Shown piece by piece: positions 10,287-17,836 of a stretch of DNA of 34,744 nucleotides. The notes under the pieces are model-generated. The model saw nothing but the letters and a program-made list of their open reading frames with translations, was not told the DNA's origin and made no database searches. The number at the start of each line of letters is the position of its first letter. The stretch's first letter is position 1. The position numbers and the translations under genes are program-made. The stretch comes from an uncultured Photobacterium sp. (lineage in GTDB: Bacteria > Pseudomonadota > Gammaproteobacteria > Enterobacterales > Vibrionaceae): NCBI GenBank assembly GCA_947039005.1, contig CAMQXY010000025.1, positions 1 through 34,744 on the forward strand. The letters are read 5' to 3'.

Positions 10287-11621
10287 CTAATTTTTTACTG
10301 CTGAATCTAAACGGTAATCAACGATATTGAACTTGCGTGCTACTATCGGTAAACGAGCCATTACGGTTGTCACAAATAAGATCAGTAATGTTGGTAATAA
10401 CCAACTAGCATGTGCTTGATATAGCGGTAATGTATGATTGAAAAATTGATTAAGTTCTGTTGGCATTTTACCTAAAATACTGACGGCATCAACAGTACCA
10501 AATACTACCGCAGTGACTAATACAGAAGTATGAGTCAATGTTGAAACGTGAATGGTCGAAGCGGTTAAAGAGGCAAATACTAATGCAATCGCGACGGGGC
10601 ATAATACTAAGATAGCCGGTAAGCTAACTTTCAAAATATCATTAAGACCAAAGTTAGCAATCATGCCAGTCAATACCACAATAATTGTTGCGGTAAAACC
10701 AAATGAGGCTTTGAATGTTTGTTGGTAATATTCAGCGCAGGCATTGGTTAAGCCAACGGTTGTGGTCAAGCATGCCATGATAATAATTGCCGCCAGTAAC
10801 CATTGACCATAGATTCCAAATTCACCCGCAACATAACGAGTCAGGATCACACTGCCGTTCATGCCATGGGTCGCAATAGACGTTGAGGTTGCACCGACAT
10901 ATCCCATCGCAATATAACAACTGCCCATTAATACAAAATAGATCATTGCGACTTTAAATGAGACGCTAGCGATCCCTTTTTGTGATACCACACCTTTAGC
11001 TTTAATCGCTTGAATGATTACCCAACCAAACCCTACTGCCGCGATAGCATCCATGGTCATGTAACCTTGGATTAAACCACTGGTTACAGCGCTATGTTGA
11101 TAATCACCATAAGGTGCTGCTGGTACACCAAGCGGTGAAATGAATGCTGCTAGTCCTAAACCGGCTAATAATAAAATTAGCGCAGGTGTCATGATTTTAC
11201 CGATGTAATTAACAAGGTTACCGGGTTTAAACGCTAAAATTAACGTTAAGGCAGAGAATACGATAGAGAAAGCAACTAGATGATCTGCTTTGAAAAAAGG
11301 TTTTAATCCCATCTCATAAGCAACAGTAACGGCACGTGGCATACCAAACGCTGGACCAATTGCTGTAAATAATAGGATCCAGAATGTGGTTGCTAACCAT
11401 TTAGGTAGTGCTTTAGTGAGGTTTTTAGTGCTGCCAATACGGCCGAGTACAATAATAGTAAAAGCGGGTAAACCCACAGCAGTGACTAAAAATCCACTCA
11501 TTGCTGATGTTAATGATGTACCTGCATCTAAACCCATCGCTGGGGGGAAGATCAAGTTACCAGCTCCTAGAAAGAGTGCGAAGGTCATTAGGCCGATAGC
11601 GAGTAAGTCTTGTGTTTTCAA
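10287..11621 (-). CDS. brnQ: branched-chain amino acid transporter BrnQ, copy 1
   Basis: Inner-membrane Na+- or H+-coupled symporter of the LIVCS family taking up leucine, isoleucine and valine. About 444 aa with some 12 hydrophobic segments. The family start LLAIGLMTFALFLGAGNLIFPPAMGL is close to E. coli BrnQ, and TAVGLPAFTIIVLGRIG, FGMPRAVTVAYEMG, GYMTMDAIAAVGFGWVII and ACLTTTVGLTNACAEYY are typical. I favour the TTG at 11621 as start (MKTQDLLAIG): AGGT lies eight bases before it, and the same sequence layout recurs in copy 2; the ATG at 11636 lacks a ribosome site but would add five residues. A leader peptide gene and alternative hairpins lie upstream (11757-11935). Copy 2 lies upstream on the same strand; the two are clearly duplicates by eye, probably over half identical. 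Confidence 0.95.
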   Translation of the reverse strand: MKTQDLLAIGLMTFALFLGAGNLIFPPAMGLDAGTSLTSAMSGFLVTAVGLPAFTIIVLGRIGSTKNLTKALPKWLATTFWILLFTAIGPAFGMPRAVTVAYEMGLKPFFKADHLVAFSIVFSALTLILAFKPGNLVNYIGKIMTPALILLLAGLGLAAFISPLGVPAAPYGDYQHSAVTSGLIQGYMTMDAIAAVGFGWVIIQAIKAKGVVSQKGIASVSFKVAMIYFVLMGSCYIAMGYVGATSTSIATHGMNGSVILTRYVAGEFGIYGQWLLAAIIIMACLTTTVGLTNACAEYYQQTFKASFGFTATIIVVLTGMIANFGLNDILKVSLPAILVLCPVAIALVFASLTASTIHVSTLTHTSVLVTAVVFGTVDAVSILGKMPTELNQFFNHTLPLYQAHASWLLPTLLILFVTTVMARLPIVARKFNIVDYRLDSAVKN

Positions 11622-11756
11622 ATGTTGTACCTGCATTGTAGTGAATGTCGAACAGTAATTAATAACTTAAATAGATAAGTATTAGAGTGCTGTCGCTTCG
11701 TTAATAATGGTTCCGCAGGTTTGCTGAAAGAAGATATGAAGAGTTGAAACAATCCT

Positions 11757-11810
11757 CCATCAGCATGGCTGACGGAAGCTTGCCCGCCAGCCTAGCGAAT
11801 AATCACTAGG
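11757..11810 (-). promoter_or_regulatory. transcription attenuator of brnQ copy 1
   Basis: Four segments on the minus strand form exclusive pairs. Segment 1 CCTAG (11810-11806, codons 42-44 of the leader) pairs with CTAGG (11795-11791). Segment 2 GGCTGGCGG (11792-11784) pairs over nine bases with segment 3 CCGTCAGCC (11775-11767). Segment 3 CCGTCAGC can instead pair over eight bases with segment 4 GCTGATGG (11764-11757), followed by TTGTTTC and a G-poor, TC-rich stretch. A ribosome stalled at the Ile/Val codons would free segment 2 and block 3:4. The tail is not a classic U-run, so termination may be Rho-assisted; that part is inference. Confidence 0.7.
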
Positions 11811-11935
11811 ATAAAAGCGGAAATAATTCGAGATGCTTTTTTTATTACTATAGAAGTAACTTCAATCCAAGCATTAGCCGCTTGTATTGATGCTAAGTGT
11901 TTTTGTTCTCTATGTTCAAACGCTGTTGAATACAT
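11792..11935 (-). CDS. brnQ copy 1 leader peptide, Ile/Val/Leu-rich
   Basis: A 47-codon frame ending WIEVTSIVIKKASRI then ISAFILVIIR. It contains nine Ile, three Val and two Leu, and 12 of its last 24 codons are branched-chain amino acids. Its stop codon overlaps the first strand of the downstream hairpin, exactly as in the leader peptides of ilvGMEDA, ilvBN and leuABCD operons (established examples). It should be translated only to sense charged Ile/Val/Leu-tRNA and control brnQ, whose start lies 170 bases further on. The ATG at 11935 has only a weak GAAG ribosome site and a shorter initiation further in cannot be excluded. No other gene overlaps it. The product itself is probably functionless. 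Confidence 0.68.
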   Translation of the reverse strand: MYSTAFEHREQKHLASIQAANAWIEVTSIVIKKASRIISAFILVIIR

Positions 11936-12159
11936 ACTTAACAACTTCTATTAATGAATAAGTGAAATACAGGTTAAAAATATAAAGAAAACGGAGTGTT
12001 GTAAATAACTTTCTTCATTTTTTTTTTAATAATTGTGAAAAAATCTGATTAAAGCGTTTAATGTTAAATAGTTACTGGATTGTAGGGGGTTTATTTTGAG
12101 TTATCGTAACAATATCGATTGGTTATGTTGTTAGTTGTCGTTTTTTTAAATCCAAAGTG

Positions 12160-12191
12160 TCAATAAGAAGGGCTAGAAATTTACTAGCCCT
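12160..12191 (-). terminator. terminator of brnQ copy 2
   Basis: On the minus strand AGGGCTAG pairs with CTAGCCCT around a seven-base loop and continues TCTTATT. It separates copy 2 from the leader of copy 1, so each copy is its own transcription unit. Confidence 0.8.
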
Positions 12192-12215: not shown

Positions 12216-13535
12216 TTAGCTTGCAATAACACTTTCGTGACTTTTATATTCACGTGCACACACTTTACTGATGAGAATAGTGATGGCAACAGGTACTAAC
12301 CAAGATGCATGTGAGTTAAATAATGGTAACCAGCGTTCGGCACCAAGGGCTATTGTTGCTGGTAGCTTACCTAAAATATTTAATGCATCAATACTACCAA
12401 ATAGTGTTGCCACGATGACTACTGTTGTCTGACTAATCGAAATCCGGCGTTGTTCTGGCGTTGAGTGATTTCGAATGAAAAATGTCGAGATAATCAATGA
12501 AATTGAAATAGGGCACAAAATTAAAATGGCAGGAAGGCTGACTTGAATAATGGTTTCCAATCCAACGTTAGAAATAATCGCCGTTAGTACCATAATTATG
12601 GTGGCACTAAGTTTGAATTTTACGCCATAGGTATTTTTATAATATTCACCATTGGCATTGGTTAGACCTACGGTGGTCGTTAAACACGCCATTAATGTAA
12701 TCGTTGCTAACAATAGTTGTCCCATCGTCCCAAATTCACCCGCCGCATAACGAGTAAGAATTTCACCACCATTAGTTGCTTGTGGCGCAATCTGAGATGA
12801 CGTTGCCCCTAAATAACCCATAGCAAGGTAACAAAGTGACATTAGAACGGCATAAATAAGTGCGATACGAAGAGTATAGTAAGAAATGGCTTTGTTGCAT
12901 GTCACACCGGTATTACGAATAGTTTGAATGATCACCCAGCCAAAAGCGACTGCCGCAATGGCATCTAATGTCATGTAGCCTTGGATTAGTCCATTAACAG
13001 TAGGCGCTTGGCGGTAGGTTTCAATTGCTGCTGTTGGTGAGCCTAAAGGATTAACCACCGCTGAAATAGCCAGTAAGGCTAACATTGCAATAAGCGCAGG
13101 CGTCATTACTTTACCAATATAATCAACGAGTTTTCCGGGTTTAAGTGCCAGTACTAATGTTAGTGCACAGAAAATGGCGGAGAAGATCATTAATCCGTTA
13201 CCAGAATAAAAAGGTTTTATTCCCATTTCATAGGCAACGGTAACGGCACGCGGTAAAACAAAAGCAGGGCCAAGTGTTGTTAGCACTAAGAACCAAAAAG
13301 AACGATCCATCCATTTTGGTAATGCAGCAGTTAATTTGTCAGCAGAAGATAATCGTCCAAGAACAACCAGTGTTAATGCGGGTAAGCCAACGGCAGTTAG
13401 CAAAAATCCAGCAATAGCAATTAACCAGTTTTCACCCGCTTGTTGTGCCATAAGAGGGGGGAATATTAAGTTACCAGCACCGAGAAATAATGCAAAGGTC
13501 ATAAAACCAATGGCTGCAAGTTCTTTTGTTTTCAA
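12216..13535 (-). CDS. brnQ: branched-chain amino acid transporter BrnQ, copy 2
   Basis: Second LIVCS-family Leu/Ile/Val symporter, about 439 aa with some 12 membrane segments. Diagnostic stretches: ELAAIGFMTFALFLGAGNLIFPP, LTAVGLPALTLVVLGRLS, VLPRAVTVAYEMGIKPFYSG, QGYMTLDAIAAVAFGWVIIQ and CLTTTVGLTNANGEYYKNT. The likely start is the TTG at 13535 (MKTKELAAIG), with TAAGG eight bases before it; another in-frame TTG at 13553 has no ribosome site. A valine-rich leader peptide and exclusive hairpins lie upstream, and a terminator follows. Having separate attenuators suggests that the two copies answer to different amino acids (Val here, Ile for copy 1). Substrate preferences may differ, but this cannot be read from the sequence. 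Confidence 0.95.
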   Translation of the reverse strand: MKTKELAAIGFMTFALFLGAGNLIFPPLMAQQAGENWLIAIAGFLLTAVGLPALTLVVLGRLSSADKLTAALPKWMDRSFWFLVLTTLGPAFVLPRAVTVAYEMGIKPFYSGNGLMIFSAIFCALTLVLALKPGKLVDYIGKVMTPALIAMLALLAISAVVNPLGSPTAAIETYRQAPTVNGLIQGYMTLDAIAAVAFGWVIIQTIRNTGVTCNKAISYYTLRIALIYAVLMSLCYLAMGYLGATSSQIAPQATNGGEILTRYAAGEFGTMGQLLLATITLMACLTTTVGLTNANGEYYKNTYGVKFKLSATIIMVLTAIISNVGLETIIQVSLPAILILCPISISLIISTFFIRNHSTPEQRRISISQTTVVIVATLFGSIDALNILGKLPATIALGAERWLPLFNSHASWLVPVAITILISKVCAREYKSHESVIAS

Positions 13536-13608
13536 ATGACATACCTTATTCAAAATAAACAGTTTGAGTCAGTATGCTGGAAGAGATAATTAGAAGTGAA
13601 ATTCATAT

Positions 13609-13658
13609 CCGCCAGCGTTACTGACGAATAAATTAACCGTCAGCGTCAGAAAGTGACG
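13609..13658 (-). promoter_or_regulatory. transcription attenuator of brnQ copy 2
   Basis: On the minus strand CGTCA (13658-13654, within the Val codons) pairs with TGACG (13648-13644); CTGACG (13643-13638) pairs with CGTCAG (13626-13621); and that same CGTCAG can pair with CTGGCG (13615-13610) around a TAACG loop. These are the 1:2, 2:3 and 3:4 pairings of a classic attenuator. After 3:4 come AATTTCACTTC and further TC-rich, G-poor sequence rather than a pure U-run. The 3:4 element matches that of copy 1 in sequence as well as position. Confidence 0.68.
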
Positions 13659-13741
13659 ACGACGACAGATTTTAGCGTACAAGCAATCGGTCTGGTTGCT
13701 GTAGCAATAGCATCCTGATTGTTGTTAATGTTCTGAGACAT
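13646..13741 (-). CDS. brnQ copy 2 leader peptide with four consecutive Val codons
   Basis: A 31-codon frame, MSQNINNNQDAIATATRPIA then CTLKSVVVVTF. Codons 26-29 are GTC GTC GTC GTC, a codon otherwise uncommon in this AT-rich window, and the stop TGA falls inside segment 2 of the attenuator. This is the expected layout for a valine-sensing leader peptide controlling the transporter 111 bases downstream. The ATG at 13741 has only a poor ribosome site (AGAG about ten bases before). It occupies the 355-base gap between brnQ copy 2 and yjjG, where I could not identify a convincing promoter. Confidence 0.7.
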   Translation of the reverse strand: MSQNINNNQDAIATATRPIACTLKSVVVVTF

Positions 13742-15421: not shown

Positions 15422-15487
15422 AAAAATCAGTTAAATCTATAAAAACTGATAGAGCAATTAGCGCTTAATCATAACGTGGAGCACAAA

Positions 15488-17836
15488 ATGGAAAAGGGAT
15501 TTAATAAAACCAAAGTTGCCGGTATTGTTGCAGGCTTGTTGTTAGCAAGTACGGTGACGCAAGTACAAGCGGCACCGACCCATGATAAAAATGTGATTGG
15601 TTATTTAACTCAATGGGAAGCATGGAAAGGCACTAATGCAGGTTTTTCTGTGAAAGGTGAAGCGACCCATTTGAACGTAGATATGGATATTTACTCTATT
15701 TTAAACTTCTCATTTTTTGGGGTTGCAAAGGACGGTTCATTACACAGTGGTGATTTACGCAATAAACAAATTTATAAGCCAGGTAGTGAGCAAGAGCCGG
15801 GATCATTATTACATCCTGATGTGTATTCAAGCTGGGATTTCCATATTTTGTGGGGAGAACTGGAATATATTCACCAATACCCCGTTAATGAACCGTGGGA
15901 TGCTGAAAATTTAGAGAAAGTAAAAGCACAAGGTTTTGTGAAAAGTGGTAAAGGCTGGCGTCATAAGCCAACAGGTATTGAAGGTAATATGCCTATTCCT
16001 CTTAAAAAAGAAGGTGGCGCTCCAGGTTTGATTGATCTTGCGAACCAAAAAGGCGTTAAAGTTATGGCGTCGTTAGGTGGTTGGAGTATGTCTAAGCACT
16101 TTCCTGAAATGGCGGCAGATCCGGTAAAAAAGGCACGTTTCCTTAAAGATTTAGATAAATTAATGGCATTAGGCTTCCATGGGATTGATATTGATTGGGA
16201 ATACCCAGGATTTGGTGGAATGAACTTTGCGGGAGATCCGGCTGATTTCGCTAACTTTGAACAATTAATGGAAGACATTCGTAAACGTATTGGTCCTGAT
16301 AAATTACTTACCGCAGCATTCTCTGCTTCAACAGCTAAACTTGAAGGGTTTAATTGGCCACGTCTCGTTAAGTCAATGGATTACTTTAACATGATGACGT
16401 ATGACCTTAATGGTTCATGGTCAAATGTAACGGGGCATAATGCACCTTTGTATCCATACCCAGAAGAAGAATTTAAAGGGCTTGATTTAGAAACTTTACG
16501 TATTTGGATGGCTGATAAAGGGATCCCATCAGATAAAATTAACTTTGGTGCAGCATTTTATGGCCGCGGTGTTCAAACCACTGAAACGGATGCTTATTTA
16601 GGTGCGCCAACTGATAAACGTATGTATACCATGTCAGTAGACGGTCCATTGTTAACCGCTGTTGATGTTGATAACTGGAAAGAATTTGAAGGTTCTCCAA
16701 ACTATAACTACATTGTTAAAACCCCAGGCTGGGAACATAAGTGGGATGTAAATGCAGAAGTGCCTTATGCAGTTAAAGGTAAATATTTTTTAAGTTATGA
16801 TGATGTTCCTTCTATTAAGAAGAAAGCACAATACATTGTTGATAATGATTTAGGTGGCGTGATTGTTTGGCAAGTACATGGTGATATTCAATGTGAAGGT
16901 ACTTTTATTAACCATGGCAGTAAACTAAAAGAATGTACTAAATTAAGTTCGCCATTGGCTGAAGCAATTGATGACGTTTTTAGTGCCAATACAACCCCGA
17001 ATGCAGCCCCTGAATTAACTGTACCAAATGCTCAAGTTGCCACTGCGGGTGAAACTATCAGTTTTAGTGTTTCAGCAACAGATGCTGATGGCGACAGCTT
17101 AATTTTTAGTTCAGTAGAAGCACAAGTTACCGATAATGGTGATGGTACAGCAACCGTGACTTACACTGCACCAAATTCGGCGACAGATATTGTGACATCA
17201 GTAATCATTAAGGTGACTGATGGTCGTAAGAGTGTAACTAAAGCTGTGGTAGTAAACGTTAAAGGTTCTGGAGTAGTCGAAAATACAGCGCCAGAGCTGA
17301 CTGCACCGATAGCTGTTGAGGTTGAAAGTGGTCAAGATGTCGTTATTACTGTAACAGGTACGGATGCTGACGCTGATGCGTTGACGTATTCTTCTTCTAT
17401 GGGACAGGTTGTTACTACGGCGACAGGGGCTGATGTTACTGTAACAGCACCAACAACTGATATTGATATGGTTATCAATGTTGTAATTATGGTTACTGAT
17501 GGTCAAGCATCAGCACAGAAAACGGTTGTGGTTAACGTTAAAGCTGAGGCTGGTGTTGTTGGTGATACGTGGGATGTAAATACTATTTATAACTCAGGTG
17601 ATACTGCGGTCTATAATGGCATTACTTATACCGCCCAATGGTGGACTAAAGGTGAAACACCAGGAATATCATCGGTATGGGTTGAAGCAGATACGGGTGA
17701 AGTTGGTAGTTGGTCTGCATCTAAAACCTATAATAGTGGTGATGAGGTTACCTTTGACGGCAATAGCTATAGTGCTAAATGGTGGACTAAAGGCGATCAG
17801 CCGGGTAATGCCAATGGACCTTGGGAGCGTATTTAA
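15488..17836 (+). CDS. secreted GH18 chitinase with two Ig-like and two chitin-binding modules
   Basis: Extracellular enzyme that hydrolyses beta-1,4-linked N-acetylglucosamine polymers, 782 aa. Modules: Sec signal peptide (1-28, VAGIVAGLLLASTVTQVQA); GH18 barrel (about 35-490) with GVKVMASLGGWS and the catalytic DxxDxDxE motif GIDIDWEYPG, Glu238 being the proton donor, plus YFNMMTYDLNG and the barrel-closing GVIVWQVHGD; two bacterial Ig/cadherin-like repeats (about 505-595 and 597-690) sharing APELT...TDADxDxLxxSS and VTDGxxS; two tandem CBM5/12 modules at the end sharing WWTKGxxPG. The start is the ATG at 15488, with GTGGAG six bases before it; the in-frame GTG at 15476 is part of that ribosome site. 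Monocistronic. Vibrionaceae chitinases are commonly induced by chitin oligosaccharides, but no known operator was identified. Confidence 0.95.
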   Translation: MEKGFNKTKVAGIVAGLLLASTVTQVQAAPTHDKNVIGYLTQWEAWKGTNAGFSVKGEATHLNVDMDIYSILNFSFFGVAKDGSLHSGDLRNKQIYKPGSEQEPGSLLHPDVYSSWDFHILWGELEYIHQYPVNEPWDAENLEKVKAQGFVKSGKGWRHKPTGIEGNMPIPLKKEGGAPGLIDLANQKGVKVMASLGGWSMSKHFPEMAADPVKKARFLKDLDKLMALGFHGIDIDWEYPGFGGMNFAGDPADFANFEQLMEDIRKRIGPDKLLTAAFSASTAKLEGFNWPRLVKSMDYFNMMTYDLNGSWSNVTGHNAPLYPYPEEEFKGLDLETLRIWMADKGIPSDKINFGAAFYGRGVQTTETDAYLGAPTDKRMYTMSVDGPLLTAVDVDNWKEFEGSPNYNYIVKTPGWEHKWDVNAEVPYAVKGKYFLSYDDVPSIKKKAQYIVDNDLGGVIVWQVHGDIQCEGTFINHGSKLKECTKLSSPLAEAIDDVFSANTTPNAAPELTVPNAQVATAGETISFSVSATDADGDSLIFSSVEAQVTDNGDGTATVTYTAPNSATDIVTSVIIKVTDGRKSVTKAVVVNVKGSGVVENTAPELTAPIAVEVESGQDVVITVTGTDADADALTYSSSMGQVVTTATGADVTVTAPTTDIDMVINVVIMVTDGQASAQKTVVVNVKAEAGVVGDTWDVNTIYNSGDTAVYNGITYTAQWWTKGETPGISSVWVEADTGEVGSWSASKTYNSGDEVTFDGNSYSAKWWTKGDQPGNANGPWERI

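Follow-up and report, generated by a model that had tools for sequence, protein, structure and literature searches.

Probable leader-peptide frames with isoleucine, valine or leucine codon runs precede three brnQ importer genes in Photobacterium

The window analyzed here is the whole of a 34,744-nucleotide stretch of DNA from an uncultured Photobacterium sp. (assembly GCA_947039005.1, contig CAMQXY010000025.1), and it carries two brnQ genes for branched-chain amino acid importers (PF05525) on the minus strand: brnQ-1, of type B1 (10287..11621), and brnQ-2, of type B2 (12216..13535). The start of brnQ-1 was placed by comparison with relatives. It is probably the TTG at 11621-11619 and not the ATG at 11636, because three related loci (L008, L009, and L010) have an in-frame TAA between the two, and GCAGGU at 11629..11634 (minus strand) is its probable ribosome-binding site by sequence comparison. 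The 52 B1-type genes that we compared begin with TTG in 36 cases, GTG in 7, and ATG in 9. For brnQ-2, the start is probably likewise a TTG (13535) and not the first in-frame start of the region 13533-13553 (minus strand). A terminator scan found a terminator-like hairpin behind brnQ-2 (12169..12191, minus strand), so that brnQ-1 probably relies on a promoter of its own. A promoter-like site, TTTACA-17-TATTTT, lies at 11977..12005 (minus strand), in a region where the promoter scan returned 9 sites against 10.6 expected from shuffling; by eye, most B1 and B2 leaders are preceded by TTTACA-like elements. On the plus strand, a long ORF at 15476-17836 encodes what we take, from its sequence features, to be a secreted glycoside hydrolase family 18 chitinase.

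Between the two brnQ genes and on their strand lies a frame of 47 codons plus TAG (11792..11935; ATG at 11935, TAG at 11794-11792), whose peptide is MYSTAFEHREQKHLASIQAANAWIEVTSIVIKKASRIISAFILVIIR. The initial annotation had described a 47-codon frame in which Ile, Val, and Leu make up 12 of the last 24 codons and whose stop codon overlaps the second of four pairing segments; the frame is exactly as described, on the minus strand, and the overlap was borne out. Segment 1 (CCUAGUGA, 11803..11810), segment 2 (11784..11798, with the stop codon inside), segment 3 (CUUCCGUCAGCC, 11767..11778), and segment 4 (GCUGAUGGAGG, 11754..11764) were delimited on the minus strand by folding, pairing analysis, and alignment. 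Hairpin 1:2 joins 11810-11803 to 11798-11791 (8 pairs including G-U), hairpin 2:3 joins the GGCUGGCGG of segment 2 (11792-11784) to 11775-11767 (9 pairs), and hairpin 3:4 joins 11778-11768 to 11764-11754 (11 pairs). The length of 2:3 is therefore the one first reported, whereas 1:2 and 3:4 had been given only 5 and 8 pairs. Thus the leader has the layout of an attenuator: its ORF spans segment 1, its stop lies at segment 2, and its hairpins are mutually exclusive. Behind 3:4 the sequence reads AUUGUUUCAACUCUUC, in agreement with the earlier remark that a pure U-run is missing there. It is followed on the same strand by a pyrimidine-rich stretch (11723..11752), the 3′ part of which (11735-11723) can pair with segment 4 (4:5), and by a downstream element 6 (ACCUGCGGAA, 11711..11720) that complements segment 3 as well as the brnQ-1 ribosome-binding site.

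By itself, the frame is modest evidence: 12 or more Ile, Val, or Leu codons in the last 24 were reached in 35 of 2000 dinucleotide shuffles of the brnQ-1 upstream region. The fold of the leader has a z score of -4.8, and none of 200 shuffles was equally low. We accept the leader as real because of its conservation. Used as the query against our genome collection, the BrnQ-1 protein led to 47 loci in Photobacterium, Moritella, Psychromonas, Aliivibrio, and Vibrio, which together with the window and second copies at four loci make up the 52 B1-type genes; all were chosen by the protein and not by the leader. Alignment across relatives, the check that had been proposed at the outset, bore out both the frame and its amino acid run: every one of the 52 upstream regions has the frame, a stop that starts UAGGCUGRCG, and then CCGUCAG and GCUGRYGG. 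This confirms that the Ile frame and the exclusive hairpins before brnQ-1 are real and conserved. The run is mainly Ile in 46 of these leaders and mainly Val in 6, the Vibrio rows L044 and L051 being scored as Val by just 4 to 3, and the usual C terminus of the B1 leader peptide is IIxAIILVII(N/R). Ile occupies positions -30, -18, -9, and -6 in 45, 47, 51, and 48 of the 52 leaders, respectively, and the third base varies while the amino acid is kept (at -18, ATT in 33 and ATC in 14).

The same region had first been read as a single Ile leader in front of the first brnQ. The leader stands, but it is not alone, as Val and Leu leaders precede two paralogues: it is one of three, with Ile on brnQ-1, Val on brnQ-2, and Leu on brnQ-3. 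The Val leader ORF of brnQ-2, MSQNINNNQDAIATATRPIACTLKSVVVVTF (ending ...SVVVVTF), lies at 13646..13741 on the minus strand, where it is matched by the covariance model R2 and the fold has a z score of -4.7; alignment places its segments 2 (13643-13637), 3 (13630-13621), and 4 (13615-13606) within 13606..13643 of the same strand. The third brnQ, elsewhere in the genome (G000:C55), has a Leu leader ending ...LLLLLSLNLIQG. Four BrnQ genes were found in this genome, all above the Pfam cut-off for PF05525, and the fourth (G000:C2, L001) has no obvious leader by eye. Each class thus has a short leader ORF with a codon run for one amino acid. The Val run is common to all 35 B2 leaders analyzed, with Val at -18, -15, -12, and -9 in 32, 35, 34, and 34 of them. 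This set omits four loci where the start codon was missed (L013, L015, L022, and L047), one that starts within the gene (L018), as well as identical sequences; 36 were kept, and L026 was then removed for its wrong frame. Among 81 family genomes we found 13 B3 loci, 12 with a clear Leu run and one (L102) with a weaker run; Leu stands at -27, -24, and -18 in 13 of 13. Third bases vary here as well, at -12 in both classes: GTC 19, GTT 13, and GTG 2 in B2, and CTT 5, CTG 5, CTA 1, and CTC 1 in B3.

Structure alignments comprised 40 of 43 distinct B1 sequences (A1), 29 of 31 from B2 (A4), and all 13 from B3 (A5). In B1, 97.1% of cells were paired in 1:2 (six-pair core), 99.2% in 2:3, and 95.6% in 3:4; for 2:3, the values in B2 and B3 were 97.5% and 100%. 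Covariation in the stems, which had been suggested as a check, was found in part. It is clear in 3:4 of B2, which is 100% paired and has 9 two-sided cells with A-U to U-A swaps; its paired cells, two-sided cells, and score were matched by none of 500 shuffles, while two of the five measures, the number of pairs and types, did not go beyond shuffles (64 of 500). The base of 3:4 covaries clearly in B2 (P 0.001) and modestly in B1 (P 0.035) but not in B3 (P 0.73). Two-sided change is absent from 2:3 in all three alignments and from the core of 3:4 in B1, is limited to 2 cells in 1:2 of B1, and amounts in 3:4 of B3 to one cell (L109), not beyond shuffles (141 of 500); it is thus clear for 3:4 of B2 only. 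The need to pair with 2 as well as 4 would be expected to keep segment 3 invariant. Segment 3 also finds a partner in the stretch further downstream, beyond shuffles at P 0.05 or less in 76% of B1, 87% of B2, and 69% of B3 leaders. Pairing of segment 4 with the pyrimidine stretch (4:5) reached the same threshold in 53%, 61%, and 8%, respectively, that is, above shuffles in B1 and B2 and not in B3.

From these features we consider it very likely that the leader peptides sense amino acids, the leader frames presumably being translated. On balance we favor the overall explanation that brnQ-1 carries a ribosome-sensing leader on a branched-chain importer, one of three such leaders. When the cognate charged tRNA is short, the ribosome would stall on the codon run and cover segment 1, leaving segment 2 free to pair with 3; hairpin 3:4 would then be blocked and brnQ expressed. 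When the amino acid is plentiful, a ribosome at the stop codon would cover segment 2, 3:4 would form, and expression would drop. That shortage of the cognate amino acid raises, and does not lower, brnQ expression is likely. The drop would most plausibly result from Rho terminating transcription in the stretch after 3:4, which is rich in C and poor in G; in the B1 class, an occluded brnQ ribosome-binding site might contribute. As folding does not discriminate between Rho and its main rival, we state the output only as a preference, while the sensor is stated with high confidence.

Rho as the main output, a participant that the initial annotation had already suggested and to which we give a little less than an even chance, fits the composition behind 3:4, which is suggestive: C exceeds G there by a mean of 7.4 per 40 nt in B1, 9.0 in B2, and 11.9 in B3, against a standard deviation of 4.2 in other noncoding windows (mean 0 by construction). 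By its composition, the pyrimidine-rich stretch at 11723..11752 is a possible Rho site. Against this, in the window itself 40 nt counted from inside hairpin 4 hold only 10 C and 5 G for B1 and 8 C and 6 G for B2. It also counts against the favored explanation that equilibrium folds in which segment 2 was masked frequently preferred 4:5 to 3:4 (mean 0.57 versus 0.32); in the stalled state the pyrimidine stretch was less open in 10 leaders and more open in 1.

The main rival is translational attenuation, in which the position of the leader ribosome sets the pairing of the brnQ ribosome-binding site and transcription is affected secondarily, as proposed for toiL-topAI. Several observations speak for it. 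In B1, an upstream element complementary to the ribosome-binding site varies in step with it: CCUGC or UCUGC goes with GCAGG in 17 of 17 members of one group, the remaining 35 mostly combine GUCC and GGAC, and two Vibrio have GUCUU with AAGAC; in every class a further downstream stretch can pair with segment 3; and the start codons of brnQ-1 are often weak. Complementarity of the ribosome-binding site to an upstream element, however, reached P 0.05 or less in only 39% of B1 leaders and did not go beyond shuffles in B2 (0%) or B3 (8%), so the hairpins that can be drawn by eye in B2 and B3 gained no support from the shuffle test and an occluded ribosome-binding site was dropped as the general output. 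Folding also depends little on ribosome position: with the ribosome at successive codons the curves were nearly flat, and accessibility of the ribosome-binding site barely shifted. Where B1 did shift, the direction was opposite to that expected under purely translational control: stalling made the brnQ-1 site less accessible in 30 of 52 leaders and more accessible in 3. We regard this reading as unlikely, if still the closest competitor of the Rho output.

A second rival is transcription attenuation of the textbook kind, in which 3:4 would be an intrinsic terminator, if a weak one; the initial annotation had invoked this layout, and the hairpins fit it. A simple terminator scan accepts the window's 3:4, whose 11 pairs are followed by AUUGUUUC, and in 14 of 100 leaders the best 8 nt after 3:4 contain 5 T. 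However, that scan, which is laxer than the T count, returned 3 sites in the region against 2.4 +/- 1.7 in shuffles, which is chance level, and across the 100 leaders of the three classes no intrinsic terminator with a U-run was found at 3:4, the best 8 nt never holding as many as 6 T. The comparison was with ilvG of the same genome (L199, G000:C8), which has the leader MRITATFLTLIINVIVVIMSPRREFAGVS and an ordinary terminator with six T; ilvG is the only positive control, the leuA contig ending 122 nt upstream of the gene. The rich leader and the exclusive 1:2, 2:3, and 3:4 pairings of the textbook scheme are thus present and conserved, whereas its terminator is not. We therefore rejected an intrinsic terminator as the general output, since no class keeps the U-run, and consider classical attenuation improbable. 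The three leader classes, all without a conserved U-run, would be good subjects for the study of stalled-ribosome control without an intrinsic terminator.

If the frames were not sensors but coded for small hydrophobic proteins with an independent function, as membrane peptides or toxin-like products, this would account for the conservation of their short hydrophobic C termini across species. But the N termini diverge between species, the run tracks the paralogue (Ile, Val, or Leu) and has been exchanged in one clade, and the stop codon lies inside an RNA hairpin, its position varying in B3, all of which makes such a function very improbable. A chance frame with chance hairpins, for which the shuffle P of about 0.02 for the frame alone leaves some room, has a negligible probability given conservation in all 52 B1-type regions, the existence of three classes, and the B2 covariation.

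Leader-peptide attenuators of the ilvGMEDA, ilvBN, and leuABCD operons are textbook cases for biosynthetic operons in gamma-proteobacteria. The brnQ leaders resemble them in having a short ORF enriched in codons for the regulated amino acid, the exclusive 1:2, 2:3, and 3:4 pairings, and the stop at segment 2. They differ in controlling importer paralogues, one leader per amino acid, in lacking a conserved intrinsic terminator, and in having extra downstream pairings and a segment 2 that starts at the stop codon. The initial annotation did not know of leader attenuation as an established control of BrnQ, and we too found no description of it in the openly accessible literature. Rfam gave no match in the window and nothing relevant at E values up to 5, and the T-box covariance model had no match there either. 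RF00512 had 8 matches in the genome, none over the cut-off and none at brnQ genes; an ORF scan of seven of these places showed no convincing branched-chain leader. Attenuation of ilvGMEDA in Vibrio alginolyticus is cited in PMC9409037. In Firmicutes, according to PMC2494555, T-boxes control LIVCS (BrnQ) transporters, a likeness in that BrnQ-family genes are under amino-acid-specific control in cis. T-boxes read uncharged tRNA directly, whereas the brnQ leaders would act through a translated codon run. In Escherichia coli, the upstream ORF toiL of toiL-topAI senses ribosome-targeting antibiotics (PMC12121999), and as proposed here a stalled upstream ribosome alters pairing near the ribosome-binding site of the next gene, with Rho acting downstream; unlike the brnQ leaders, toiL as described there has no amino acid codon run. 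Staphylococcus aureus likewise has BrnQ paralogues, BrnQ1 and BrnQ2, which differ in substrate range, BrnQ2 being described as dedicated to Ile; there, brnQ1 is under CodY and the leader attenuator is on ilvD (PMC5794164).

Within the family, the covariance models matched 64 of 296 genomes (R1), 57 of 247 (R2), and 53 of 247 (R3), raw counts that include cross-hits between classes. The best 30 R1 matches (L052-L081) all lie before a B1-type brnQ and all have a leader frame; of 16 further regions with weak or unclear R1 hits, 13 have a brnQ by tblastn, and the R1 hits L089 and L095 look like chance. At L094 (G073:C462), a decayed B1-type brnQ was seen by eye behind remnants of the leader hairpins. 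In an order-wide sample of 295 genomes, R1 matched 12, including six outside the family, while strong R3 hits were confined to the family, three weak ones (L186-L188) falling in other families.

Ile, Val, and Leu leaders occur together in 35 of 52 genomes of the genus, the Val leader being of B2 type in 29 and on a B1-type copy in 6; for most genomes the leader class is a model hit, codons having been read at the fetched loci and genomes sorted by hand, and many are the same assemblies as those of the named loci, which means that genomes and named loci do not form independent sets. Seven others have different combinations, and ten match none of the three leader models (G007, G032, G052, G064, G072, G095, G103, G133, G150, and G152), G150 and G152 being incomplete assemblies. 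The B2 Val leader was found in 33 genomes, a B1-type Val leader in 7, and both in none (hypergeometric 0.0004 for 52 genomes, phylogeny ignored), absence being judged by the covariance model and concerning the B2 leader, not the B2 gene. In six of the seven genomes with a B1-type Val leader, the neighboring B1 copy retains an Ile leader. A protein tree made by a quick method, with long branches flagged and with one short B3 protein (L110) and one identical B2 protein left out, placed the four named species whose Val leader is of B1 type in one clade (support 100), which sits with the Ile-leader B1 genes (support 91). Val leaders therefore have at least two origins.

We propose tentatively, and as something short of probable, that Photobacterium splits import into three separately sensed channels through Ile, Val, and Leu leaders on three brnQ genes, that this set is under selection, a duplicate of the Ile lineage with Val codons replacing a missing Val leader, and that the hairpins form a new terminator-less relay to Rho, the ribosome-binding site, or both. 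Leader-peptide attenuation would then act here on importers, as a matched set with one sensor per branched-chain amino acid, and the codon runs would predict the amino acid served by each BrnQ paralogue in a family whose specificity is hard to annotate. PMC2494555 cautions that specific control need not imply specific transport. The lineage with Val codons on the Ile-type copy would amount to a natural experiment in sensor retuning. The seventh genome with a B1-type Val leader (G123, L206) has a single B1-type leader with the mixed run MNTIISVVVLVIVI, 5 Val and 4 Ile, which may stand midway between Ile and Val specificity.
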